In this document: positions 2,900-41,618 of the stretch, piece by piece
How the letters are laid out: the number at the start of each line of letters is the position of its first letter
Numbering within the stretch: position 1 is the stretch's first letter
Source: a virus
Length of the DNA: 41,618 bases
IMG/VR virus record: IMGVR_UViG_3300047320_000357
Span: 1-41,618 of that record
Strand: one strand, 5' to 3'
The notes under the pieces: generated by a model
What the model saw: only the letters and a program-made list of their open reading frames with translations
Databases searched by the model: none
Told to the model about the DNA's origin: nothing
Position numbers and translations under genes: made by a program

Positions 2900-5563
2900 T
2901 TAGCCTTGGCCATCACCCAGGCGGCCGCGCTGCGACCGGCTGGCCTGACGGTCGCGGGCATCCAGCTCGGCGCGCACCTTCTTGGCGACCGCCTCTTCAG
3001 ACATACCGGGTTGCGTCTGCACGACAATGTCACCGTACTGGCTGACCTGCTGCGGGGCAGCGGCCATGCCCGCCGGTGACGCCACCATGCCAACGGGTGC
3101 CGCCGCCGGGACATGCGGACCACCGACAGCCGACGCGCCGGGCGGGGCCCCACCGACGGCACTACTCGGCCCGGCCGCCGCCACCGGCGAATCACTGCCA
3201 AACAACCCGCCGGCGAAATCCTTGATGGCCGTGATAGGCGCCATAGTCTTTTGTGCGATCCACTCCATGGCCGAACCACAGGAAGACTTGATGCCCGCCC
3301 ACAGCGTCGTGAAGAACCCCGTCAGCGGCTCCCACGCGGCAGTCACCATGCCCAGGGGCGACCAGGTGAACAGTGACTTGATGAACTCCCAGCCCGCGCT
3401 AAACACAACTTTGATGCCGTCCCACAGCGTCGTGAAGAGCCACGCCAACGGCTGCCATACGGCCGCCACCAGGCCCGCAGGTGACCAGTTGAACAGCGCC
3501 TTGATGAACTCCCAGCCCGCGCTAAACACAACTTTGATGCCGTCCCACAGCCCGCCAAAGAAGCCTTTCAGCGGCTCCCAATAGCGCACCACCAAGGCCA
3601 CTACAGCCACCAACGCCAGCATGCCGGCAATCACCAGGCCGATAGGGTTGGCCGACATGGCCACGTTTAACGCCCATTGCGCCGCCGTCATCACCGCCGC
3701 CCCTACGGCAAACGCTCGACTGGCGGTGCCCAGCAGGAACACCCCTGTTGCGGCCGCCATAGCCCGAACCCGCGTTACGAGTAACGCCGCTTGCGTGCGC
3801 AGATTGGCCACGGTGAAGTATTTCAGCGCAGCGACGGCCAGCATCAGCCCATCGGAGAGGAACGCGAAGCCAAAGCGGGCGGCAATCGACGCGATCTTCA
3901 GGCCCACCAGCCCGACCAGGGCGAAGCCAATCACCTTGGAGAGAAACGGGAAGCGCTCGACCAGGCTGCCGATCAGGTTGGCCAGCTGGCCCACGCCGCC
4001 GGCGGCAAACATCATCGCCGGGGCGAACACCGCCCCCAGGCTCACACTGGCGTTCTGAATGCGCTGGCTCATCAACTTGAACGACTCGTTCGGGCCGCTG
4101 TTCATGATTTGAGCCATACGCTCAGTGGTCGACATCCCCGTTTTCAGCGCTTCGCCCATGCCGCCGATGTTCTTTTTCAGCGAATCAATTTCGGGGTACA
4201 GCAGCTGGATCAAGGCGATAGCTTCGTCAGTACCAAACGCCTTTTTCATCTCCTGGGTTTCCATCGCGTCCAGGGTGTCGCCGTACTTGTCGCGCAGCAC
4301 TTCCAGAATCGCCGGCATCGACAACAGCTTGTCGTTGGCATCCATGAAAGAGACGCCCAGCTTTTCACTGGCCCCGGCGGCCGCGCCGATAAACGATCGG
4401 TATTTGGTGGCCGCTTCAGAACCGGACATCGTTAGCTGAAGCTGGCCGAGAATGGCCAACTGCTCGGCAAATGGAATGTTCGCCGACGTGGCGGTCGCGC
4501 CCAAGTTGGTCAGCGCCGCCGACATCTGCTGCCCGTCCGACTTGAACACGTTGACCGTTTCAACCAGGCCCGCCGCGAAGTACTTGCCGAACTCAATGTC
4601 GCGTTCTTCCGCGCTCATCTTGTCCCAGCCCGCGACCACCGTTTTACCGAAGTCGTCGAACTGGCGGCGATACACGCCGTATCCGGTCGACATCAGCGAG
4701 GTCATTTCGGCGGTGGTCGACTTGGTCGACTTCGCCACCAAGGCGGCAATTTTGGTGAAGTCGCCGATAGCATCGGCGCCCAGGGTATCAATCGCCGACT
4801 TGATTTCGACCGCGCCTTCGATGAACTCCTTTTGCGTGGTGCCCGACCACATGTTCGAAAACTCTTTGGCCTTGGCGGTAATCGAATCAATGCCCGCCTG
4901 ATCCAGCCCCAGGGCTAAGCCGTCATTGCGCGCGGTGACTACTTCGCCATAGGCGTCGACCAGCTGTTTCGCGCCGGCGATGGCCACCCCGACCCCGATG
5001 GCGTCACCCGCCGCCGACATTTTCATGTCGCTGTTGCGCTGCTTGATTTCTCCCAGGCGCTTTTGCTTTTCGGCGACCAGGGCCAAGGCTTTCTGCTCCT
5101 TGGCCAATTGCTCGTTGTAACGACGCGTGCGCATCTCGATCAGCCGCGTGGCTTCGGAAAGCCTGCCCGTGTTCACCCCCGTGGCCGAAAGCTGCTGGCC
5201 GGTGCGCTGCAGCTCCAGGCGCTCGGACTGCTGTTGTGCCTGCAAGCGTTTGACCTGTTCGGCCGCCCGGGTAAATTCATCCGTCATTTTGCGGGTCGGG
5301 TTGGCCGTGGCATTCAGCTGCTGCCCCAGGGCCTGCGCTTTGGATTGAGCCAGGGCCAGGGCCTGCGCTGTCTGGCCGGTGCGCGCCTCAAGCGCTTTGA
5401 AGTGCTCGATGTCCTTAGAGGTATTGCCCAGGCGCGACAGCTCGGACTGGGTCGCCTTGATTTTTTCGCCCATCCGCGACGTGGTATCGGTCACCTTCAG
5501 AATGGGCCCGGTGATTTTGTCCACCAGGCCCATGATCAGGTTTAGCCGCATAGAATTCGACAT
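2900..5563 (-). CDS. T: tail tape measure protein GpT
   Basis: A protein of 887 aa whose length sets tail length. Residues 1-170 are rich in heptad-like helices (AQSKAQALGQQL, EQVKRLQAQQQSERLELQ). The middle has the phage-tail-tape-measure core with GLALGLDQAGIDSI and the YRSFIGAAAGASEKLG segment. Several hydrophobic stretches follow (near 545-680), then three roughly 41-residue repeats with WDGIKVVFSAGWEFI, and a disordered Ala/Pro/Gly-rich tail. The start MSNSMRLNLIMGLVDKITGP matches the family and avoids an unlikely 24-aa N-terminal extension from 5635. It follows the E/E' chaperone genes, as in P2. Confidence 0.95.
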   Translation of the reverse strand: MSNSMRLNLIMGLVDKITGPILKVTDTTSRMGEKIKATQSELSRLGNTSKDIEHFKALEARTGQTAQALALAQSKAQALGQQLNATANPTRKMTDEFTRAAEQVKRLQAQQQSERLELQRTGQQLSATGVNTGRLSEATRLIEMRTRRYNEQLAKEQKALALVAEKQKRLGEIKQRNSDMKMSAAGDAIGVGVAIAGAKQLVDAYGEVVTARNDGLALGLDQAGIDSITAKAKEFSNMWSGTTQKEFIEGAVEIKSAIDTLGADAIGDFTKIAALVAKSTKSTTAEMTSLMSTGYGVYRRQFDDFGKTVVAGWDKMSAEERDIEFGKYFAAGLVETVNVFKSDGQQMSAALTNLGATATSANIPFAEQLAILGQLQLTMSGSEAATKYRSFIGAAAGASEKLGVSFMDANDKLLSMPAILEVLRDKYGDTLDAMETQEMKKAFGTDEAIALIQLLYPEIDSLKKNIGGMGEALKTGMSTTERMAQIMNSGPNESFKLMSQRIQNASVSLGAVFAPAMMFAAGGVGQLANLIGSLVERFPFLSKVIGFALVGLVGLKIASIAARFGFAFLSDGLMLAVAALKYFTVANLRTQAALLVTRVRAMAAATGVFLLGTASRAFAVGAAVMTAAQWALNVAMSANPIGLVIAGMLALVAVVALVVRYWEPLKGFFGGLWDGIKVVFSAGWEFIKALFNWSPAGLVAAVWQPLAWLFTTLWDGIKVVFSAGWEFIKSLFTWSPLGMVTAAWEPLTGFFTTLWAGIKSSCGSAMEWIAQKTMAPITAIKDFAGGLFGSDSPVAAAGPSSAVGGAPPGASAVGGPHVPAAAPVGMVASPAGMAAAPQQVSQYGDIVVQTQPGMSEEAVAKKVRAELDARDRQASRSQRGRLGDGQG
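3377..3550 (-). repeat. 51-nt perfect direct repeat inside the tape measure gene
   Basis: Bases 3377-3427 and 3500-3550 are identical over 51 nt and lie 123 nt (41 codons) apart. A third, degraded unit lies at about 3258-3305. In protein they give repeated WDGIKVVFSAGWEFIK units. Confidence 0.9.
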
Positions 5564-25127: not shown

Positions 25128-26426
25128 TTATGCGCTTTCACTTTTATTCATTCGGATTACTTCATTAACTGTGACCTCAACGGCACTATCGACGCTTTCA
25201 AACCGCCACCCAGAAAGCTTCTGGTAATGCTTAAAACGGCTCCAGAAGCCCTCATACTCGGACACCTCTTCGAATTTAAGCTTGTCTTTTTCAGAGTACG
25301 GCACCACATAGACATAAATAAAACTGCCGATCCTAAACTCAGAAACCAGGTGCGGCAAACTATAATCATCACTCTTCCTAATATAGTTTGTTATTTCTGG
25401 CGGCATTGCAAAACCAGCATGAAACACATTCATTGCTATTTTCGGCAAATGCTGCCCCGGACTCTCTCCGTACCTTAACCACCGCAAAGTAGCATTAAAC
25501 CAAACAATATCTTGCTCGCCAATTGTGGACAAACTTATCTTACAAAGAGCCTTGTAGAGTTTCAGAGGAGTAAACTTTTTGGACGACTCAAACTCAACCA
25601 CCAAGCCTTTATCTGGCGTGAAGTTAATTTTTTCCGCCACAACAACCGGTATACCACCCTGATTAATAATCTTCCCATTCTTATAGCTTATCGTCGGAAT
25701 TCCGCCCTTACCTTTCACACCCAGAAATGCCCTATAAACATCCAAGTACTCAATTAAGTTAGGCTCTATATCATTGCCAAAAAACTCATTACACCCATCA
25801 CATTCATTCGCAAGAAGTATATTTTTGTTGCCAAGCGCTTCCGGTATCGCATGTGCAACGTTGCTGAAGGTGGCGCCGTCCTCCTGACGCTCCCCGCAGA
25901 ATCTACACTTGCGATCCTCCTTCTTCGCATTAGCTATAATCGTTCTCCTATTATTTCTAGGCTGTGAGATATTGTAATTCTTCAACAGGTCGCCAAAAAG
26001 CTCTTCAGAGCCATCCGTCTCCTCTTGGAAATTTTCACCATCAATAAATTCACGACCCTTCTCATTCAGAGCTTCAAGATAAGTCTCCAGCTTAAGTTTC
26101 AAAGCTGTATCCGATGGAATTTCGCCCAAAACAAGAAAGTATTGATTTTCAGGAAGACCCGATATCTTTTTACCCAATCTCTTCAGCATTGGAAATGCTG
26201 GGAAATTCTCACCCACAAACTCTGTAATTTTTTGTTTTAACTCTTTCGTCGCTTTCTGTTCAGCCTTAATTCTCACGCCTCCGGCTTCCACTTCTCCAAA
26301 GCACATCAGTAGACTACTGAATATAGTTTCACATTCAACAGTTACAGGACTTAAGACCAAAGCAAACCCATCATCCAAAGTCATAAAACTAATTTGCAAA
26401 CTCTGCATACATGAAATCCTTTCCAT
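25128..26426 (-). CDS. HNH endonuclease-domain protein, 432 aa (moron)
   Basis: A central HNH_5-type zinc-finger nuclease motif is clear: C174-x2-C177 (CRFCGE), His192 in AHAIPEALGN, Asn200, and C209-x2-C212-Asn213 (ECDGCNEFFG). The regions before (1-165) and after (about 230-432) are large and not recognised. The gene is markedly AT-rich and out of step with its neighbours in codon use, so it was probably acquired recently. It lies between antiterminator Q and the late terminators, a site unrelated to the phage life cycle. A role in defence against other phages is inferred from domain, composition and place. Confidence 0.8.
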   Translation of the reverse strand: MERISCMQSLQISFMTLDDGFALVLSPVTVECETIFSSLLMCFGEVEAGGVRIKAEQKATKELKQKITEFVGENFPAFPMLKRLGKKISGLPENQYFLVLGEIPSDTALKLKLETYLEALNEKGREFIDGENFQEETDGSEELFGDLLKNYNISQPRNNRRTIIANAKKEDRKCRFCGERQEDGATFSNVAHAIPEALGNKNILLANECDGCNEFFGNDIEPNLIEYLDVYRAFLGVKGKGGIPTISYKNGKIINQGGIPVVVAEKINFTPDKGLVVEFESSKKFTPLKLYKALCKISLSTIGEQDIVWFNATLRWLRYGESPGQHLPKIAMNVFHAGFAMPPEITNYIRKSDDYSLPHLVSEFRIGSFIYVYVVPYSEKDKLKFEEVSEYEGFWSRFKHYQKLSGWRFESVDSAVEVTVNEVIRMNKSESA

Positions 26427-26984: not shown

Positions 26985-27305
26985 TCAATCCCCTGTGTAA
27001 TTTGTGCCGCCCGCGCCCAGGCGGTTCGGCTTTTCATATAGGTGCGATGGCCCGACTACATTGGTCGGACCTTTCAGTGCTGCAATTTCGTGCTGCGCCT
27101 GCTGGAGCTTGAAGCTCAATTGGGTGACCAGTTCGTCCAAGGAAAGCACCAACCTACTGCCCGAAGCGACCCAACCTGAGGCATTGCAATCAGTGCATAC
27201 GAGCTCATAAAACACCCCCTGCACTACCGCTTTACCCCTGCAAACCGGACAAGGCTCCAAGTCAATTCGCTGTCTCTTAAAGCCTTGGGCCCGCCCTTTC
27301 TGCAT
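26985..27305 (-). CDS. small zinc-ribbon protein, 106 aa
   Basis: A zinc ribbon is formed by C19-x2-C22 (CPVC) and C37-x2-C40 (CTDC). It is followed by a helix LDELVTQLSFKLQQAQHEIAAL that may form a coiled coil. Similar small ribbon proteins (Lar-like) occur in the early regions of many phages; the function here is not known. The chosen ATG overlaps the recombinase end by 29 nt. The stop lies 4 nt before the Q start, so it is coupled with Q. Confidence 0.7.
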   Translation of the reverse strand: MQKGRAQGFKRQRIDLEPCPVCRGKAVVQGVFYELVCTDCNASGWVASGSRLVLSLDELVTQLSFKLQQAQHEIAALKGPTNVVGPSHLYEKPNRLGAGGTNYTGD

Positions 27306-28605
27306 GTTTCGAAACCTCGCCCTTAACAAATTGCGGAATCGACTCGCAGGCCGCGCCGTTCAAGGCGTCTACGATGTTTTGCGAATCTTCATATCTAACG
27401 CCTGTCTGCTCGTGAATCGCCTTGAAGCCACGCTCATCTAACCAGTTGTGCCACTTCACCAGAGCCAGCCGCCGCTGCTCCTTGGCCTGGGTATTGATGT
27501 ACGTCGAAGCGATCTTGCCGAGGGAGTGGTTCAGTAGCATCTCGCCGATGTGGCCGTCGACGCCGAGGTCAGTCCAGGCGGTACGCGCTACCTTGCGCAG
27601 GTCGTGACTGGTCCAGGCGCCCTGCCCCAATCGGGTGAACACGGCACTGGCCTGGTTATCGCTCAGCGGCTTCCCCCGGCGAGATGGGAACAGGAATGGA
27701 CCCTCGTACCCTTGAGCGGTTTGTCGTTCACGGTAGCGGCGCAGCAACGCGCACACCTGGTCAGTCAGTGGCACCCGCAGCTCGGTCTTGCTCTTCGTGT
27801 GTTCGGCCGGCAGGAACCACTCACGCTCAGCCAACGCAATGTCGGCCCAGCGAGCCTGCCGGGTTTCGCCGATGCGGGTACCGTGGCAAAGCATCATCAG
27901 GGCCAGCATGGCGTCAGCCGGCGCGCTCTCGAAACGCTCGGTCAACTGCTCCACCAGCTCCGGCAACTGCACATCGCGCAGGCGGGCGGGCTTCGGCAAG
28001 ATGCGAGCCGTCGTGAAGTTGATGAACTTGAGCTCGGCCATCGGGTTGACCGGGATCAGGTCCAGCTTGCGGGCCTGACGAAAGGCCACCGCGAGCAGGC
28101 GATACAGCTGCTGGACGTACGACAGCGACAACTCTTCCTGAGCCGGCCACATCAGCAGCTTGTCCAGCGTTTGGGCATTGACGTCGCGAATCAGCAGATC
28201 ACCCAGGCGCGGCTTGAGCTGGCAACTGATGGCCGACTTGCCGGCTGAACGGCGTTTGACAGACAGCGCGCGGGAACGAGCCATGCGGTCGGCGAACCAA
28301 TCCAGCAGCTCACCGACGGTTACCCACCCCGAAACACTGGCGGCACCATCGGCTGCCACGCGCATGCGCACTGCGGGCAAGGCCGCAACAACTTGCTTGG
28401 CGGAGAGGTCGGGAAAGGCGCCGATGCGGTGCCATTTGCGTTTGTTCAGCAGGTACCAAGACCCGCGCGCGCGATTCTTTGCATAACGGAAGTGCAACGC
28501 CGGGTGACTGGCATCACGCAGGTCGCGCACATGCTCCAGCATGGCATTGCGCTGAATCTCGGCGTCCGACAGCTTTACGGTCAGGGTCTTGATCAGTGTG
28601 TTCAA
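27277..28605 (-). CDS. internal tyrosine recombinase, 442 aa
   Basis: A complete tyrosine recombinase. The catalytic set is visible: Arg244 (GTRIGETRQARW), Lys near 271-273 (HTKSKTELRVPL), His334-x2-Arg337 (SHDLRKVARTAW), His360 (NHSLGKIAS) and Tyr369 (STYI). A SAM-like core-binding domain covers about 95-190. It sits in the middle of the replication operon, between dnaB and Q, far from att and beside no excisionase. It is unlike the terminal integrase in sequence. A role in dimer resolution or genome circularisation is possible; a captured integrase is another. Confidence 0.9.
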   Translation of the reverse strand: MNTLIKTLTVKLSDAEIQRNAMLEHVRDLRDASHPALHFRYAKNRARGSWYLLNKRKWHRIGAFPDLSAKQVVAALPAVRMRVAADGAASVSGWVTVGELLDWFADRMARSRALSVKRRSAGKSAISCQLKPRLGDLLIRDVNAQTLDKLLMWPAQEELSLSYVQQLYRLLAVAFRQARKLDLIPVNPMAELKFINFTTARILPKPARLRDVQLPELVEQLTERFESAPADAMLALMMLCHGTRIGETRQARWADIALAEREWFLPAEHTKSKTELRVPLTDQVCALLRRYRERQTAQGYEGPFLFPSRRGKPLSDNQASAVFTRLGQGAWTSHDLRKVARTAWTDLGVDGHIGEMLLNHSLGKIASTYINTQAKEQRRLALVKWHNWLDERGFKAIHEQTGVRYEDSQNIVDALNGAACESIPQFVKGEVSKHAERAGPRL

Positions 28606-31069: not shown

Positions 31070-31492
31070 TCAGGCGACCTTTACTGATGCCTTCAGCTGC
31101 GCCAGCGCCTCTTCGGCATGAGCGATTTCTTTCAAAATCCGGGCGCGCTCTACCTGGTCAACACGGCCATCAGCCATCGCCAAGTGCGTCTCGACGGTGA
31201 CCTCAGCAAACTCCAGCGTGGCGCGCCCAAGCGCCTCGTGAATGCCGAGGGCCACTGGTTGTTCTTTTTTCAGGATCGAGTAACCGAACTCGCCAGCCAG
31301 AGCGGCCAACGGGCGCATGTCTTGCGTGTGCAGGAGCAGCGCATACAGGTGCTTCACGTTGAACCAGGCGCCGTCGTAGTTAGCATTGGCACGCTGAAGC
31401 AGGCTCACCGGCGGCATGTTCATCATCGTGGCCAGTTGCTTGGTGTTGGCTTCATCAACCACGGTGTCGCAGGCCTTCAGAAAATCGTGCAT
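31070..31492 (-). CDS. phage regulatory protein CII-like (CP76 family)
   Basis: A 140-aa protein with MHDFLKACDTVVDEANTKQLATMMNMPPVSLLQRANANYD, the signature start of the CP76/CII-like regulators seen in P2-like and lambdoid phages of Gram-negatives. GAGG lies 8 nt upstream of this ATG, which is preferred over earlier in-frame starts without a ribosome site. It follows the Cro-like gene in the lambda cII position and likely activates lysogeny. Confidence 0.82.
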   Translation of the reverse strand: MHDFLKACDTVVDEANTKQLATMMNMPPVSLLQRANANYDGAWFNVKHLYALLLHTQDMRPLAALAGEFGYSILKKEQPVALGIHEALGRATLEFAEVTVETHLAMADGRVDQVERARILKEIAHAEEALAQLKASVKVA

Positions 31493-31648
31493 CCGTAAAA
31501 CCTCATGCTTGTTTATGTGGCTGCGCGCCATCACGCATCGCAAAATGTTTCTCAAGGACCAGAGCGATTAGAAATCGCTTCAGGCCACCATTTCGGCCCA
31601 TGGATTTGAGCGGGCGACCGCTTCGCTCAGTTCACAGCGGGTTGTGGG

Positions 31649-31879
31649 TTAGGCGGCGGAAAGCTCAGGCCAGATCTGGCACCAGTCACTTGGGCGCAGC
31701 TCTTTTCTTGAAAGGGTCCCGCTTAACTCGCGCTCAAGCGAAACAGCAAGCGCGGCGGAAGCCTGCTTGTTGCCGTACGCAATCTGTTTTAGGTAGCCGC
31801 GACTGGTGCCGGTACGTTCGATAGCCTCATCCGAAGCAGTCTTTAGCCATTCCAGTAGTTGGGCATGTTTGGTTCGCAT
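31649..31879 (-). CDS. Cro-like repressor (YdaS-type HTH)
   Basis: A 76-aa protein with a helix-turn-helix: TASDEAIERTGTSRGYLKQIAYGNKQASAALAVSLERE. It begins MRTKHAQLLEWLK with AGGAGA 6 nt upstream. It is divergent from the CI gene, separated by three operator-like palindromes, so it is the first gene of the right early operon. It would turn off CI and tune early transcription. Confidence 0.85.
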   Translation of the reverse strand: MRTKHAQLLEWLKTASDEAIERTGTSRGYLKQIAYGNKQASAALAVSLERELSGTLSRKELRPSDWCQIWPELSAA

Positions 31880-31908
31880 CACGATTCTCCTCAGCGACAC
31901 GCCAATTC

Positions 31909-31961
31909 TTACCCACAGGTAATCACAAAGCAATACCCGCAGGCCATTTACCTATAAGTAA
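31909..31961. promoter_or_regulatory. CI/Cro operator region with three palindromic sites
   Basis: TTACC-CACA-GGTAA (31909-31922) is a perfect palindrome. ATACC-CGCA-GGCCA (31933-31946) and TTACC-TATA-AGTAA (31948-31961) are related. The divergent promoters for the Cro-like and CI genes must lie here; on the minus strand TTGCTT and AAGAAT lie 17 bp apart, and on the plus strand TATAAG at 31953-31958 could be a -10 box. Confidence 0.75.
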
Positions 31962-31981: not shown

Positions 31982-32719
31982 ATGGATATAAACTTGATTC
32001 GAAAGGCCAATCTTCAGCTCCTGCTGGACCGCGAATACGGCGCGGGAACGCACGGCGCGAAAGCCGATCTTGCAAAGCGCGTCGACAAGCAACCCGACTA
32101 CATTTCCCGCTGCCTTTATTCACCTGAGAAGAAGGGGGGGAAAAATATCGGTGAGGGTTTTGCGCGGCTGATTGAGGAAAAATTCGGCTTAGCCAGGTAC
32201 GCCTTCGATTCTCCTGGGCTCGGCGGCGCGGGTGAGGTGATAGACATCGAAGGCCTGCCGGCTCCGCTCGCTCAGAAGATCAAAAGCTATAGACCGGTCA
32301 TAGAGATCGAACGCTTTGACATATCTGGGTCAATGGGCCATGGCACGGAGCCGCCTGAAATGAACATGGTCGTTGAGCACATGAGCCTTGATGCTGGGTG
32401 GGTTCGTCAAAATCTGGTCTACACCGCTGCCGAAAATCTCAAGCTGATATCAGGTCGAGGTGACTCCATGGCTCCTACCATTCGTAATGGTGACGCCTTA
32501 CTTGTTGATGCCGGGGTTACGTCAGTTCAATCCGACGCAATCTACTTCTTCATCATGCGCGGGCAGCACCACGTGAAGCGTATCCAGCGCAACCTGGACG
32601 GCTTGACGATCATTTCGGACAACGATCAGTACCGTGAGATCGACGTGCCGGAGGGTCGGGAGGGCGACATTCAAATTCTGGCCCAGATCATTTACTGGTG
32701 GACCGGCCGGAGCTTCTGA
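31982..32719 (+). CDS. CI-like repressor with peptidase S24 domain
   Basis: A 245-aa repressor. The N-terminal HTH region covers about 10-65 (GAKADLAKRVDKQPDYISRCLY). The C-terminal LexA/S24 fold has Ser162 in GRGDSMAPTIRNGD and Lys199 in HHVKRI. No Ala-Gly dyad stands at the usual place about 35-40 residues before the serine; the equivalent stretch is GSMGHG. There is no clear ribosome site before the ATG, so the message may be near-leaderless, as from lambda pRM. It maintains lysogeny and heads the operon with the HipA-like kinase. Confidence 0.92.
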   Translation: MDINLIRKANLQLLLDREYGAGTHGAKADLAKRVDKQPDYISRCLYSPEKKGGKNIGEGFARLIEEKFGLARYAFDSPGLGGAGEVIDIEGLPAPLAQKIKSYRPVIEIERFDISGSMGHGTEPPEMNMVVEHMSLDAGWVRQNLVYTAAENLKLISGRGDSMAPTIRNGDALLVDAGVTSVQSDAIYFFIMRGQHHVKRIQRNLDGLTIISDNDQYREIDVPEGREGDIQILAQIIYWWTGRSF

Positions 32720-32749
32720 TCCTGCCCTTGTTTTACTTGGAGTAAGGTT

Positions 32750-33511
32750 ATGGAAAACACACCCACGGCCAGCGTTATGTCGTTGCGCACTGGGCGGCTT
32801 CTGCCTGGCTATGTCGTACTTGATGAGGGCGTGAACGCTCCAATGAGGGGTATTGCAGCCACCCCTGACGGCGAAATATCCGTCATCGCAAAAAAAATTG
32901 GCACTAGAACATTAGCCGTAGAAGCTCTTTGCGCTGTATATGGCAGATCAGTGGGACTCCCCATACCTGAGCCTATATTCGTGTTCGATGATGATCTGGG
33001 TTGGATGTTTGCCAGTACCGACGTTGGGCACCCTAATCTGAATCAGTTCGTAACAACCGATAGCATCGCGATGAGCGAAAGGCTTCTTGCGTGGCCGCAC
33101 CTTCTTTCTGCTGCGTGCTTTGATGAGCTGATGGTGAACTCGGACAGGCATGACGGAAATATCCTCTATGACGGCCTTGATTTTACGCTTATAGACCACG
33201 ACCTATGCCTGCCGAGCGGGATGCTGGCTGACGCCGCGATGGCTGCTCACCACAGCAATGCGCTTCTGGATATTCTTATCGCTGCGCTGCCAGAAGGCGA
33301 CTTGGGTAAGCGGAAGCTGATCAAGGATTCAAATGCGTGGATTGCATCTCGGGATGATGTCTCTGCGCAGCAGGCTGAAGGCGCGATCACCGGGCTTTGT
33401 ACTCACGAGACAAAGGATCAGCTAATATCATTTGTCAGAGAGCGTCTTTCTACACTCACGAATTTGCTTGCCGCAAAGATAAATCCAGACCAAGGGAGGC
33501 TTGATTTCTAA
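32750..33511 (+). CDS. HipA-like serine/threonine kinase, 253 aa
   Basis: The kinase fold is recognised from VIAKKIG (ATP-binding Lys48/49), NSDRHDGN (catalytic Asp132 and Asn137, the HipA-type HxD loop) and LIDHD (metal-binding Asp149). The segment EALCAVYGRSVGLPIPEPIFVF fits short HipA-like (HipA_2) proteins rather than the full-length HipA of about 440 aa. All key residues are kept, so it should be active. GGAG lies 7 nt before the ATG. It is 30 nt downstream of CI and overlaps no other gene, so it is expressed in the lysogen. Its target is unknown; abortive defence or immunity is inferred from the rex-like position. Confidence 0.82.
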   Translation: MENTPTASVMSLRTGRLLPGYVVLDEGVNAPMRGIAATPDGEISVIAKKIGTRTLAVEALCAVYGRSVGLPIPEPIFVFDDDLGWMFASTDVGHPNLNQFVTTDSIAMSERLLAWPHLLSAACFDELMVNSDRHDGNILYDGLDFTLIDHDLCLPSGMLADAAMAAHHSNALLDILIAALPEGDLGKRKLIKDSNAWIASRDDVSAQQAEGAITGLCTHETKDQLISFVRERLSTLTNLLAAKINPDQGRLDF

Positions 33512-33512
33512 C

Positions 33513-34394
33513 ATGATAAATTTAGACTCGCTCCTCCCTAGCCTGCCTCCCATGCCAACGTACACCGGCGCGTGGGCATCGATATACCTAGAGCCGATGA
33601 TTGCTTCTGGAGAACGCCTTACCATCGCTGTTGCAGCTCTTGCTGACGACGGTCTTGTAAAGGTTTGTCCGGCCATAAAGGGCCATGTGCTTGAAGCAAT
33701 GTTTTCCGCTAGAGCAACTGCTTTTTCCGGACTGATCGATTTGCTAGCCCGCGATCTGGAACTGCACTTGAGGAAAAATCACCACTTCGAAGGCTGGGTC
33801 CCCCCAATTTCTGGGGTTACCATGAGCGACGCAAAACGTGCCGCCTCTAGCGATATTGATGGGATAATTCGACAAGCCGTAAGGATGACGGCAAGCCTCT
33901 CGGCCCTTGATATGAGTGGTGCGCCAATGGTGCCTGTCGAGAGAATCTTGATTCCTGCTGATGATCGGTGGCCGAAGCAATTCGAGACAGAGGCTGTTCG
34001 CCGAGACAGTCGGCTACAGCGCTTCTTCAATCAAAAGATCGCGATTTCTGAGCCATCCAAGCCGCTCAGTTTCTTCTTTTTGAGCGATAAAATAGCAATG
34101 AACACTGGGCGCCTAATTCCTGGTAGAGGCCTATCGGCTTACTTGGAGCACAACAAAGCACGGCTTCTAGATCTACGTGTAGCGAGAGAGAAGCAACAGC
34201 TATTCGTGCGAACCCATTTCGAACTAGTAGTCTTCCGCCCAGGTTTTAACGACCCAACCTATAGCACCAAGCAAATCGACGCACTCAAGCGCTCCCTCAA
34301 CACTCTTGAAGAAGCATGCGATGAACACAAGGTCAGGGTCACCCAGGTGCAAAGCGCCGAAGAGGCTGCCGACCGGCTTCTTGCTGTGGCATAG
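33513..34394 (+). CDS. unknown partner of the HipA-like kinase, 293 aa
   Basis: The gene starts one base after the kinase stop and ends at a strong terminator, so the two form a unit. The N-terminal part WASIYLEPMIASGERLTIAVAALADDGLVKV faintly resembles the DUF3037 family, which I recall lying next to HipA_2-type kinases; the match is weak. The rest is helical and ends with DALKRSLNTLEEACDEHKVRV. No catalytic motif or membrane span is seen. It could be an antitoxin, a substrate or a sensor for the kinase. Confidence 0.6.
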   Translation: MINLDSLLPSLPPMPTYTGAWASIYLEPMIASGERLTIAVAALADDGLVKVCPAIKGHVLEAMFSARATAFSGLIDLLARDLELHLRKNHHFEGWVPPISGVTMSDAKRAASSDIDGIIRQAVRMTASLSALDMSGAPMVPVERILIPADDRWPKQFETEAVRRDSRLQRFFNQKIAISEPSKPLSFFFLSDKIAMNTGRLIPGRGLSAYLEHNKARLLDLRVAREKQQLFVRTHFELVVFRPGFNDPTYSTKQIDALKRSLNTLEEACDEHKVRVTQVQSAEEAADRLLAVA

Positions 34395-34415
34395 CGGTCA
34401 GCCCCTGAACGTCCG

Positions 34416-34441
34416 AGCCCGCCACCCGTGCGGGCTTTTTT
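34416..34441 (+). terminator. terminator of the CI-kinase operon
   Basis: A 7-bp stem AGCCCGC/GCGGGCT with a 7-base loop is followed by six T residues, 21 nt after the stop of the unknown partner gene. Confidence 0.85.
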
Positions 34442-34459
34442 ACGCCTGCGCCCCAAAGG

Positions 34460-36972: not shown

Positions 36973-37980
36973 ATGCCTGTTCTCCACAGCATCATCCACA
37001 AGATCGACAAGAAGCCCGACGGCAGCCCAGCCATCCTGCACCACAGTGGCGCTGAGTTGGCGGAGAGCCAGGCTCGGGACGACCTGATGCACCAGCTCAA
37101 CGAAAGCTACAACGCCAAGCAAGGTAAGGCCTGGGGCTTCTTTCATGCTGAATCTGGCGCCTTCCCCCTCAGCGGCTGGCTCAGTAAATACATGGCCGGC
37201 ACCGAAAGCTTTGTGGATTTCAGCGGCGACGCCGTCGAGCACCTGACAAAGCTAATGGAGGAATCCAACCTGTCGATCGGTGGCAGCGCCCTCTTCTGCC
37301 ACTACTTGCAAGGTATGACCGACTATTTGGTCATTGCTCTACTGCAGGAAACTGAAGCGGTGATCATGACTGAAGGGCTGACGCTGATGCCTATTCGGCG
37401 CTTGGATCTCGATCACATCCATCTGGCCGCGCGCATCAACCTCAGTGAGTGGAAGAGCAACCCAGCATCCCTCCAGTACATCTCGCTCATCAAGGGCAAG
37501 AACGGACGAAAGGCAAACGATTACTTCCGCGACTTCATTGGCTGCCAGGAAGGTGTCGACGGCCCGGGCGAGACCCGCACCCTTCTCAAGGCGTTTAGTG
37601 ACTTCGTTGAAAGCGAAGACCTTGGCGAGGAATCTGCACGCGAAAAGACCAACACACTGGTCAGCTACGCGATGGCCCAAGCCAAGTTGGGCGAAGCGAT
37701 TACCCTCGACGAGTTGTCGGAACTGCTCGATGAAGATCAGCCGAAGAACTTCGCAGACTTCATCCAAGCCAAGGATTACGGGCTTTCCGCCTCACTGCCG
37801 CCAGACAAGAAGACCCTCAACAAATTCCGGCGCTTCACCGGCCGGGCGGATGGTCTGTCGATCAGCTTTGAACAGCACCTGCTGGGCTCGAGGATCGAAT
37901 TCGACAAGGAAGGCGGCACACTAACGCTGCGCGGCCTGCCCGTGGCGCTCACCGACCAGCTAAAGCGCGCGGCAGCCTGA
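36973..37980 (+). CDS. nucleoid-associated protein, NdpA/YejK-like
   Basis: A 335-aa protein of the YejK/NdpA family (37-kD nucleoid-associated). It has the typical start [70 protein letters not shown] and the C-terminal [22 protein letters not shown]. The length equals bacterial homologues. GAGG lies 8 nt upstream. In a phage it may coat, compact or protect phage or host DNA. It lies between two opposite-strand morons. Confidence 0.92.
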
Positions 37981-39046: not shown

Positions 39047-39811
39047 TTAGCTCGCCCCCATTCGCTGCAGACGACTAACTGGACCTTTACGATCATTGAT
39101 CGCATCGGCAAGCATTTTGAGAGCCTGCTTGCGCTCACCATAGACTTCTTCAAGCAAATACTCAGTAATTTCAAATGCATGCAAAGCGTCATCAAATTCA
39201 ACTTCATTGCCTGGATGGCTTCCATGATTCCCAAGCCATCTGATTGCACTAAAAAGCTCTCTTACTGGGTTTTGCGCTTCCGGGAGTAACTGCATTCTGT
39301 TTCCAAAGGAAATGAATTTGTCCCCGTCTTTTTCTGGAATTCCTAGCTCCGTTAGGACCTTTTCAGCAGCAATTCTAATGTTGTTGCAGCACGACGCGGG
39401 GCTTGAAAAATAAAGAGCGCTCGCCGTACCAAGTGGCGAAGTTACGTCATTCGGAGCCTTCGATGGGTAATCAATTAGTTGAAGCGCCGGATGAAAATAT
39501 GTTGGACGGAAGAATGAGTTGTATTCTCGAGTCCAATCGCCATTTTCATCAACGTCATACTCTTCCTCAACCACTCCATTCCCGACCACAAAAACGAGCT
39601 CCGAACAAGTAGTGCACTTAAGCGTGCAACTAAACACAAGCATAATGTTTTCTGGTTCCCACCAGTCTTCATTGTGCTCGGCACTAGAAGCTTCAGTTTC
39701 CTTAGAATTGAACTCTCCATCAATGCGGAGCAGGCCTGCGTAACAATGGGGGCACTTGTACTCTGGTATTTGTTTACTAGTGAATGCGCCTTTCAGTATT
39801 TCTTTATTCAT
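39047..39811 (-). CDS. DUF4145 protein with zinc ribbon, 254 aa (moron)
   Basis: A zinc ribbon is formed by C20-x2-C23 (CPHC) and C66-x2-C69 (CTTC). The C-terminal part has the DUF4145 pattern: NNIRIAAEKVLTELGI (about 143-158) and AIRWLGNHGSHPGN (about 189-202). DUF4145 occurs alone and in restriction-type proteins and is often found near defence genes. The gene is on the opposite strand and AT-rich, so it is likely acquired. A defence role is inferred, not shown. Confidence 0.8.
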   Translation of the reverse strand: MNKEILKGAFTSKQIPEYKCPHCYAGLLRIDGEFNSKETEASSAEHNEDWWEPENIMLVFSCTLKCTTCSELVFVVGNGVVEEEYDVDENGDWTREYNSFFRPTYFHPALQLIDYPSKAPNDVTSPLGTASALYFSSPASCCNNIRIAAEKVLTELGIPEKDGDKFISFGNRMQLLPEAQNPVRELFSAIRWLGNHGSHPGNEVEFDDALHAFEITEYLLEEVYGERKQALKMLADAINDRKGPVSRLQRMGAS

Positions 39812-40293: not shown

Positions 40294-40506
40294 ATGAAGC
40301 GAGAACTGATAAAGATCAGCGAGTTTCAGCGCCGGCGCTGGGGCGAAAACGGAACACCACCCTGCCCCCAGGCAATTCGCAACCATATCCGCAACGGCAT
40401 GGTCCCTGGCGAGCAGATTGGGAAACTCTGGTACGTTGACTGGACCGCATTCAACCGCTCGGACGGCAACGACCTGGTGGCGATGGTATTGAAAGGAGCT
40501 GCATGA
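40294..40506 (+). CDS. excisionase (Xis-like)
   Basis: A 70-aa protein typical of lambdoid excisionases: LIKISEFQRRRWGENGTPPCPQAIRNHIRNGMVPGEQIGKLWYVD is a winged-helix DNA-binding unit. AGAGG precedes the ATG. Its stop overlaps the integrase start (ATGATG), as expected for a xis-int pair. It directs excision of the prophage. Confidence 0.88.
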   Translation: MKRELIKISEFQRRRWGENGTPPCPQAIRNHIRNGMVPGEQIGKLWYVDWTAFNRSDGNDLVAMVLKGAA

Positions 40507-41618
40507 TGGCACCACGGCCGCGCAACACTGCGAACAAGAGCCTTCCGCAGAACCTGTACTTCGATGCGCGGCGCTCGACCTATCGCTACCGCCGGCCAAC
40601 CGATGGCAAGTGGTTCCAGTTTGGTACCGACCGCATCAAAGCAATCGACGCTGCGAAGCAGTTGAACCTGGAGTTTATGCGCGGTGCCGACTTGGTCGGT
40701 GCTGTGCTGAACAAATCTGCCGAATCGTTTGCCGGGTTCCTCGATACCTACGAGCGCGATGTCCTGCCTCCGCGCGAGTTGGCCAAGGGCACACTCAATC
40801 TGTACGCGGTGCACTTTCGGCGATTTCGCAAGCAGTTTGAAGGCAAGGCAGTCGACCAGATCACGATCCGCATGGTCGCGGAGATGCTGGATGCCCTCAC
40901 CCCTCGGACGGCAAACCAATGCCGGGCGCTGCTCATCGACATATTCAATCACGCTGCCGCCAAGGGCCTGTGCCCGGACAACCCGGCGGCCAGCACAATC
41001 AACCGCATTGAGAAGAAACAGCGCAAACGCCATACCGTCGAAGGCTTGAAAGCCATCCGGGAGAAAGCGCCAGCTTGGCTACAAAATGCGATTGACCTCG
41101 CCCTGATCACTGCCCAGCGCCGGACGGACATTCTGGACATGCGCTTCGACGGCGTTCGGGAGGGTTTCCTGTACTTGGTACAGAAGAAGACGGCAAAGGC
41201 CAGTGACGCTGCGTGGATCCGCTTCCGGGTGACACCTGAATTGCAGGCCGTGATTAGCCGATGCCGTGACGACACTGCTTCGCCGTACCTGGTGCACCGC
41301 AAGCCTGATCGCCTGAAACAGAAGCAGGCGCAGACCAAGGACCACTGGACGAAGGTTGAAGAGCGGTATTTGACGCGAGCATTCAAGGATGCCAGAGAGG
41401 CGGCAAACTGCTACGCGGGATGGAAGGAAGAAGAGATGCCGGGCTTCCACGAAGTGCGAGCGCTGTCACTGCACTTGTATAAGAAAGCCGGAAAGGATGG
41501 ACAGAAAATCGCGGGGCATGCCAGCGAAGGTATGACCAAAAACTACCAACGTGACCACGAGGAAATCATCTGGTCAGAGGCGATTCCGGACCTGAATATC
41601 AGCGAAATCACTGGGTAG
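40503..41618 (+). CDS. int: phage integrase (tyrosine recombinase), 371 aa
   Basis: A lambda-type integrase. The arm-binding N-terminus RSTYRYRRPTDGKWFQFG is followed by a core-binding domain (SFAGFLDTYERDVLPPRELAKGTLNLY) and the catalytic domain with Arg206 (TAQRRTDIL), Lys229 (QKKT), His316-x2-Arg319 (FHEVRAL), His339 (AGHAS) and Tyr348 (KNYQRD). AAGGAG precedes the start. The gene ends at the last base of the window, so att lies beyond. It performs integration and, with Xis, excision. Confidence 0.95.
   Translation: MMAPRPRNTANKSLPQNLYFDARRSTYRYRRPTDGKWFQFGTDRIKAIDAAKQLNLEFMRGADLVGAVLNKSAESFAGFLDTYERDVLPPRELAKGTLNLYAVHFRRFRKQFEGKAVDQITIRMVAEMLDALTPRTANQCRALLIDIFNHAAAKGLCPDNPAASTINRIEKKQRKRHTVEGLKAIREKAPAWLQNAIDLALITAQRRTDILDMRFDGVREGFLYLVQKKTAKASDAAWIRFRVTPELQAVISRCRDDTASPYLVHRKPDRLKQKQAQTKDHWTKVEERYLTRAFKDAREAANCYAGWKEEEMPGFHEVRALSLHLYKKAGKDGQKIAGHASEGMTKNYQRDHEEIIWSEAIPDLNISEITG

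Follow-up and report, generated by a model that had tools for sequence, protein, structure and literature searches.

The immunity region of this virus, whose whole 41,618-base record formed the window analysed here, carries two genes behind a cI-type repressor gene, one for a HipA-like kinase (K) and one for a partner protein (B), raising the question of what this pair does for the phage that encodes it. The original prediction described a lysogenic operon in the position of rexAB and a kinase-based immunity or toxin module with an unrecognised second protein. The features of the region are as follows.

31070 to 31555, minus strand: CII-like phage regulator, given as context (Pfam Phage_CP76, 4.3e-20)
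31649 to 31933, minus strand: small HTH protein in the Cro position, given as context, divergent to cI (weak, sub-cut-off match to the YdaS_toxin HTH, 0.0017)
31982 to 32719, plus strand: cI-type immunity repressor, first gene of the operon (HTH and S24 autoprotease domain)
32739 to 32742, plus strand: GGAG ribosome binding site for K (from sequence)
32750 to 33511, plus strand: K, HipA-like kinase of 253 aa, predicted toxin (fold, motifs and profile matches)
33494 to 33499, plus strand: GGGAGG ribosome binding site for B, within the 3' end of K (from sequence)
33513 to 34394, plus strand: B, diverged DUF3037-type protein of 293 aa, predicted antitoxin or sensor (phrog_21150 and profile alignment)
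34417 to 34441, plus strand: intrinsic terminator at the end of the operon (GCCCGC-loop-GCGGGC-TTTTTT)

The sequence coordinates of cI, K and B predict a single transcription unit, with gaps of 30 nt between cI and K and 1 nt between K and B; the ATG of B is at position 33513 and its stop codon ends at 34394. Three co-directed genes with this spacing and a shared terminator had been noted from the sequence; the coordinates and gaps proved exact, and a hairpin was found behind B. The terminator region (34408-34445) folds at -15.7 kcal/mol (z -3.0) and the hairpin is followed by six T residues. It was not picked up by a consensus scan, probably because the stem reaches into the T run. A promoter scan found none upstream of K, and an internal promoter for K-B is thus not indicated. 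The product of the first gene contains Peptidase_S24 (5.8e-18), matches phrog_4 (2.8e-27) and has a repressor-type HTH (phrog_5736, 1.1e-8). Since it combines HTH and S24 domains and is divergent to the Cro-position and CII/CP76 genes, it can be identified as the immunity repressor of the phage.

K itself matches the Pfam family HipA_2 below the cut-off (0.0015), and all 32 relatives scanned match this family. Against PADLOC, K gave a weak score with PDC-M66A (2.4e-5). Its AlphaFold2 (AF2) model has a confident kinase fold (pLDDT 92.9), for which the best match in the PDB is CtkA, a member of the HipA family (5.2e-6), followed by RIO kinases, PI kinases and HipA itself (7.6e-5). CtkA from Helicobacter pylori is the closest solved kinase fold, sharing 10-14% identity with K and having another partner and role. 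A search of solved structures by sequence returned nothing significant for K or B. Across 41 diverse relatives of K, residues Lys48, Glu58, Asp132, Arg133, Asn137, Asp149 and His150 are invariant. From the kinase motifs originally listed, Lys48 and the catalytic residues of SDRHDGN and LIDHD were confirmed, while Lys49 is not conserved. Profile and structure searches, meant to expose the absence of a kinase fold, found one, in line with the HipA-like identity first proposed. By its Pfam and PHROG matches, its modelled fold and its motifs, K is a HipA-like kinase with predicted catalytic activity.

With 60 loci from phages, prophages, plasmids and chromosomes, which group into 44 clusters at 90% identity, the kinase places the set far beyond chance. 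B lies directly downstream of K in all 58 loci with enough DNA, the remaining two being cut at a contig end. When B alone served as query against 369 gammaproteobacterial genomes, it turned up in four, the centre genome included, and K was its neighbour every time. The conservation of the pair, suggested earlier as a check, therefore holds from either gene, and B was not found without the kinase in most relatives. The pairwise distances of K and B are correlated (r 0.92, with none of 2000 Mantel permutations as high), and dN/dS values of both genes are 0.02-0.14 wherever dS could be estimated. As judged from these sequence comparisons, K and B are under strong purifying selection and co-evolve. 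Single-sequence scans of viral contigs with B returned L006 and its near copies, besides a match in L071 that was discarded as a chance hit in a phage structural region. On a plasmid of Pseudomonas aeruginosa PA83, an orphan gene (L005:3788-4348) encodes the N-terminal domain of B only, with no kinase nearby, and similar matches to this domain are present on two further Pseudomonas plasmids; the PA83 orphan could be a stand-alone antitoxin or an anti-defence decoy.

The pair is also mobile. In loci L024 and L028, the kinases are 79% and the B proteins 88% identical, but the repressors are only 16% identical. In near-identical pairs behind different repressors, DNA homology extends from 10 nt before K through 7 nt after B. 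More generally, repressors are unrelated (15-17% identity) where K is 64-79% identical, so that, on sequence evidence, K-B is a cassette that transfers among unrelated repressors. The phage PseuP_224, which has a related backbone, has no K-B pair behind its cI, and in the two Pseudomonas phages whose CI C-terminus is most similar, this position is taken by other genes. In Acinetobacter prophages, a 100-aa protein of unknown function (L024:4622-4924 and L025:4622-4924) travels with K-B between different repressors, and the block shared by L024 and L025 begins at the first base of its gene.

B matches phrog_21150 (8.1e-71). Neither Pfam nor PADLOC assigned a family to B of the window, and no credible family was found for its relatives (32 compared with Pfam, three with PADLOC); at the DUF3037 locus L067, used as a positive control, PADLOC detected both M66A and M66B (M66B, 2.2e-23). 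The AF2 model of B (pLDDT 89.4) comprises two domains at about residues 1-130 and 150-293. In model comparison, the C-terminal half weakly resembles the XPF/ERCC1 nuclease-like fold. The alignment of relatives shows that a conserved acidic/lysine catalytic set is absent from this half, and the reading of B as an active nuclease was rejected on this ground. Taken as a whole, the model is similar to a viral DUF1828 protein (4.4e-4), at a low TM of 0.27-0.30, and weakly to PD-(D/E)XK folds; Pfam DUF1829 has no match in B, and a genome search with DUF1829 returned four loci.

A link between B and DUF3037 had been proposed tentatively. For comparison, DUF3037 proteins were gathered from proteobacterial genomes, where their genes immediately follow genes for HipA-type kinases detected by the K profile. 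A search of these proteins with the B HMM was not significant (hmmsearch, best 0.01), and single-sequence HMM searches also missed them; profile-profile comparison with shuffle controls was therefore used. The B profile aligned with the long DUF3037 profile collinearly and over nearly the full length (250 columns, score 29.5, P 0.0026). In 300 trials each, column shuffling peaked at 24.4 and block shuffling at 27.8, short of this score; the probability given by hhalign itself is low (11.7%). By eye, a conserved turn is common to both: it reads ...YLEPMIASGERLTIAV in B, and the L090 DUF3037 protein has ...LLEPDMLRGERINIGV. With identity at about 12%, the two lineages are widely separated. In the kinase tree, the kinases of B-type and DUF3037-type pairs form sister groups with a clean split (support 100/99). 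The shuffle-backed profile match and the lack of a Pfam or PADLOC match together characterise B as a diverged sister of DUF3037 and not as a detectable member. These comparisons support B as a remote DUF3037 homologue and strengthen the tentative link, with an end-to-end alignment that none of 600 shuffles equalled and DUF3037 genes standing behind the sister kinases. B is more likely to be an antitoxin or sensor of K than an independent unknown protein, which corrects the original prediction.

Among known systems, K-B is closest in organisation to HipAD/DS-6 (PADLOC PDC-M66A+B, a HipA-like kinase with DUF3037/DUF1829). Both have two genes with a HipA_2-type kinase first and a partner of ~270-300 aa directly behind it, the order met in all 58 K-B loci; the kinases are homologous and the partners related over their full length. 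In contrast to HipAD, B is recognised by neither Pfam DUF3037 nor PADLOC M66B, the K-type kinases form a separate clade (100/99), and K-B often stands behind a phage repressor. HipAD has reportedly been found in E. coli prophages, whereas the DNA of an L014 pair had no match when searched against E. coli genomes. The HipA-like/DUF3037 operon of Retron-Sda1 likewise combines a kinase with a DUF3037-type partner, from which B is much diverged. HipBA and HipBST share the kinase superfamily and the catalytic Lys/Asp/Asn/Asp layout with K, but K has 253 aa, and its partner is encoded downstream and has no match among known antitoxin families. Unlike the HipBA kinase, no protein of the window record matches HipA_C (PF07804), and the upstream HTH protein is an S24 phage repressor that varies independently of K and not a co-evolving HipB.

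The DS-6/HipAD pair blocks phage and requires a predicted catalytic kinase residue (PMC13092281). In the Retron-Sda1 operon, deletion of the HipA gene ends defence and deletion of the DUF3037 gene is toxic, the defence being independent of the retron RT and ncRNA (PMC12548924). It is this homology to HipAD/PDC-M66 that lends partial support to a putative anti-phage or toxin function of K-B, and we consider it probable that the pair is a prophage-borne anti-phage toxin-antitoxin module of the HipAD type. Prophage addiction, in which a K-B toxin-antitoxin pair penalises loss of the prophage and blocking of phages is incidental, appears improbable. It draws on the toxin-antitoxin layout and homology, including the toxicity of DUF3037 loss (PMC12548924), and on chromosomal and plasmid copies that stand alone with no cI (L003, L047 and others), like stabilisation modules. 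However, when examined by plaque assay, both HipA-like/DUF3037 pairs studied so far blocked phage (PMC13092281, PMC12548924), and the two roles are not exclusive, as a defence module can double as an addiction module.

By our own count, about 27 of the 34 phage-borne clusters have a same-strand repressor-like gene upstream of K-B, either directly or with one small gene between. From 20 upstream genes scanned individually, 16 match HTH or S24 families and the other four are short, resembling the N-terminal part of a phage repressor, either that of the window or another one. Ten of the 20 are HTH repressors, encoded directly before K, with no detectable S24 (L004, L014, L019, L021, L022, L034, L035, L037, L040 and L041). 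In L008, a CsrA-family gene (4698-4937) lies between the repressor and K-B. Eight loci from bacterial genomes have no directly adjacent repressor (L047-L049, L051, L056 and L058-L060), and in Acinetobacter phage qsb1 (L001) the pair is located among tail genes, so that the position behind cI is common and recurrent but not required. Accordingly, the proposed rexAB-like arrangement recurs behind repressors in many phages, but K-B is not inherently a lysogenic operon, since chromosomal and some phage copies have no adjacent cI. Like K-B, lambda RexAB, BstA and further immunity genes linked to cI are accessory genes that a temperate phage carries on its repressor transcript or close to it; their proteins are not known to be related to K or B.

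The position next to cI fits addiction or lysogeny control as well as defence. We give little credence to lysogeny control, whereby K would phosphorylate the neighbouring repressor or another switch protein and B would modulate it, the pair tuning induction. The recurrence of the pair behind repressors agrees with such a role, and an alternative induction route could help where the repressor has no S24 (10 of 20). However, near-identical K-B pairs stand behind unrelated repressors, which counts against CI as a substrate of K because a dedicated substrate should co-vary, and K-B also occurs without any repressor and in the tail-gene region of L001. Least probable is a tripartite HTH-kinase-partner toxin-antitoxin system like hipBST or hipBA, which we rejected, since the HTH gene found immediately upstream of K in many phage loci (the place of HipB relative to HipA, and in several cases encoding a short HTH-only protein) has an S24 domain and a cI/cro/cII setting in the window, is swapped independently of K-B with breakpoints at the cassette borders, and is absent from chromosomal loci.

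For a HipAD-type defence module, we infer toxicity, an antitoxin role, a trigger and a target along the following lines. During lysogeny, K and B would be made from the cI transcript and B would bind and silence K. Upon infection by another phage, a phage product or nucleic acid would disturb B, whose C-terminal domain appears suited to sensing and not to cutting, as its fold is weakly nuclease-like without conserved catalytic residues. The freed kinase would then phosphorylate a factor essential to the host, which the analogy to HipA suggests to be an aminoacyl-tRNA synthetase or another translation component, and the resulting growth arrest of the host would stop the invading phage. When the resident prophage is induced, cI transcription would end and K-B would be switched off.

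Several other genes of the window were noted. A NA37/YejK (NdpA-like) nucleoid-associated protein is encoded at 36973-37980 on the plus strand (Pfam, 1.9e-85) and is also present in PseuP_224; this gene near cI may also be defensive, as a YejK-domain system has been validated as anti-phage (PMC13092281). A 432-aa HNH_5 endonuclease-like protein (25128-26426, minus strand), encoded downstream of the antiterminator Q gene, is possibly a further accessory or defence gene. Two phage integrase genes are located at 27277-28605 (minus strand) and 40503-41618 (plus strand), the latter running up to the final base of the record, as would fit a prophage border. Near this end, a DUF4145 protein (39047-39811, minus strand) is encoded on the strand opposite to its neighbours.

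The pair represents a sister lineage of HipAD that had not been labelled before; its partner protein is missed by present libraries, and it is strongly associated with the repressor operons of phages. Because curated tools score K weakly and miss B, current annotations list the proteins of this phage-borne branch, which belongs to a newly recognised type of defence, as hypothetical. Tentative, and doubtful in its full extent, is the wider proposal that temperate gammaproteobacterial phages, whichever repressor they have, repeatedly took up this unnamed lineage into the repressor transcript as a lysogeny-gated kinase defence, which in the cases lacking S24 could link infection sensing to induction. 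The lineage is defined by its phrog_21150 partner and 44 clusters, which makes it suitable for testing prophage HipA-type kinases against rival phages, and it could reveal the way in which infection is sensed by a DUF3037-type partner. In its dormant state, the virus may employ K-B to shield its host from other viruses.
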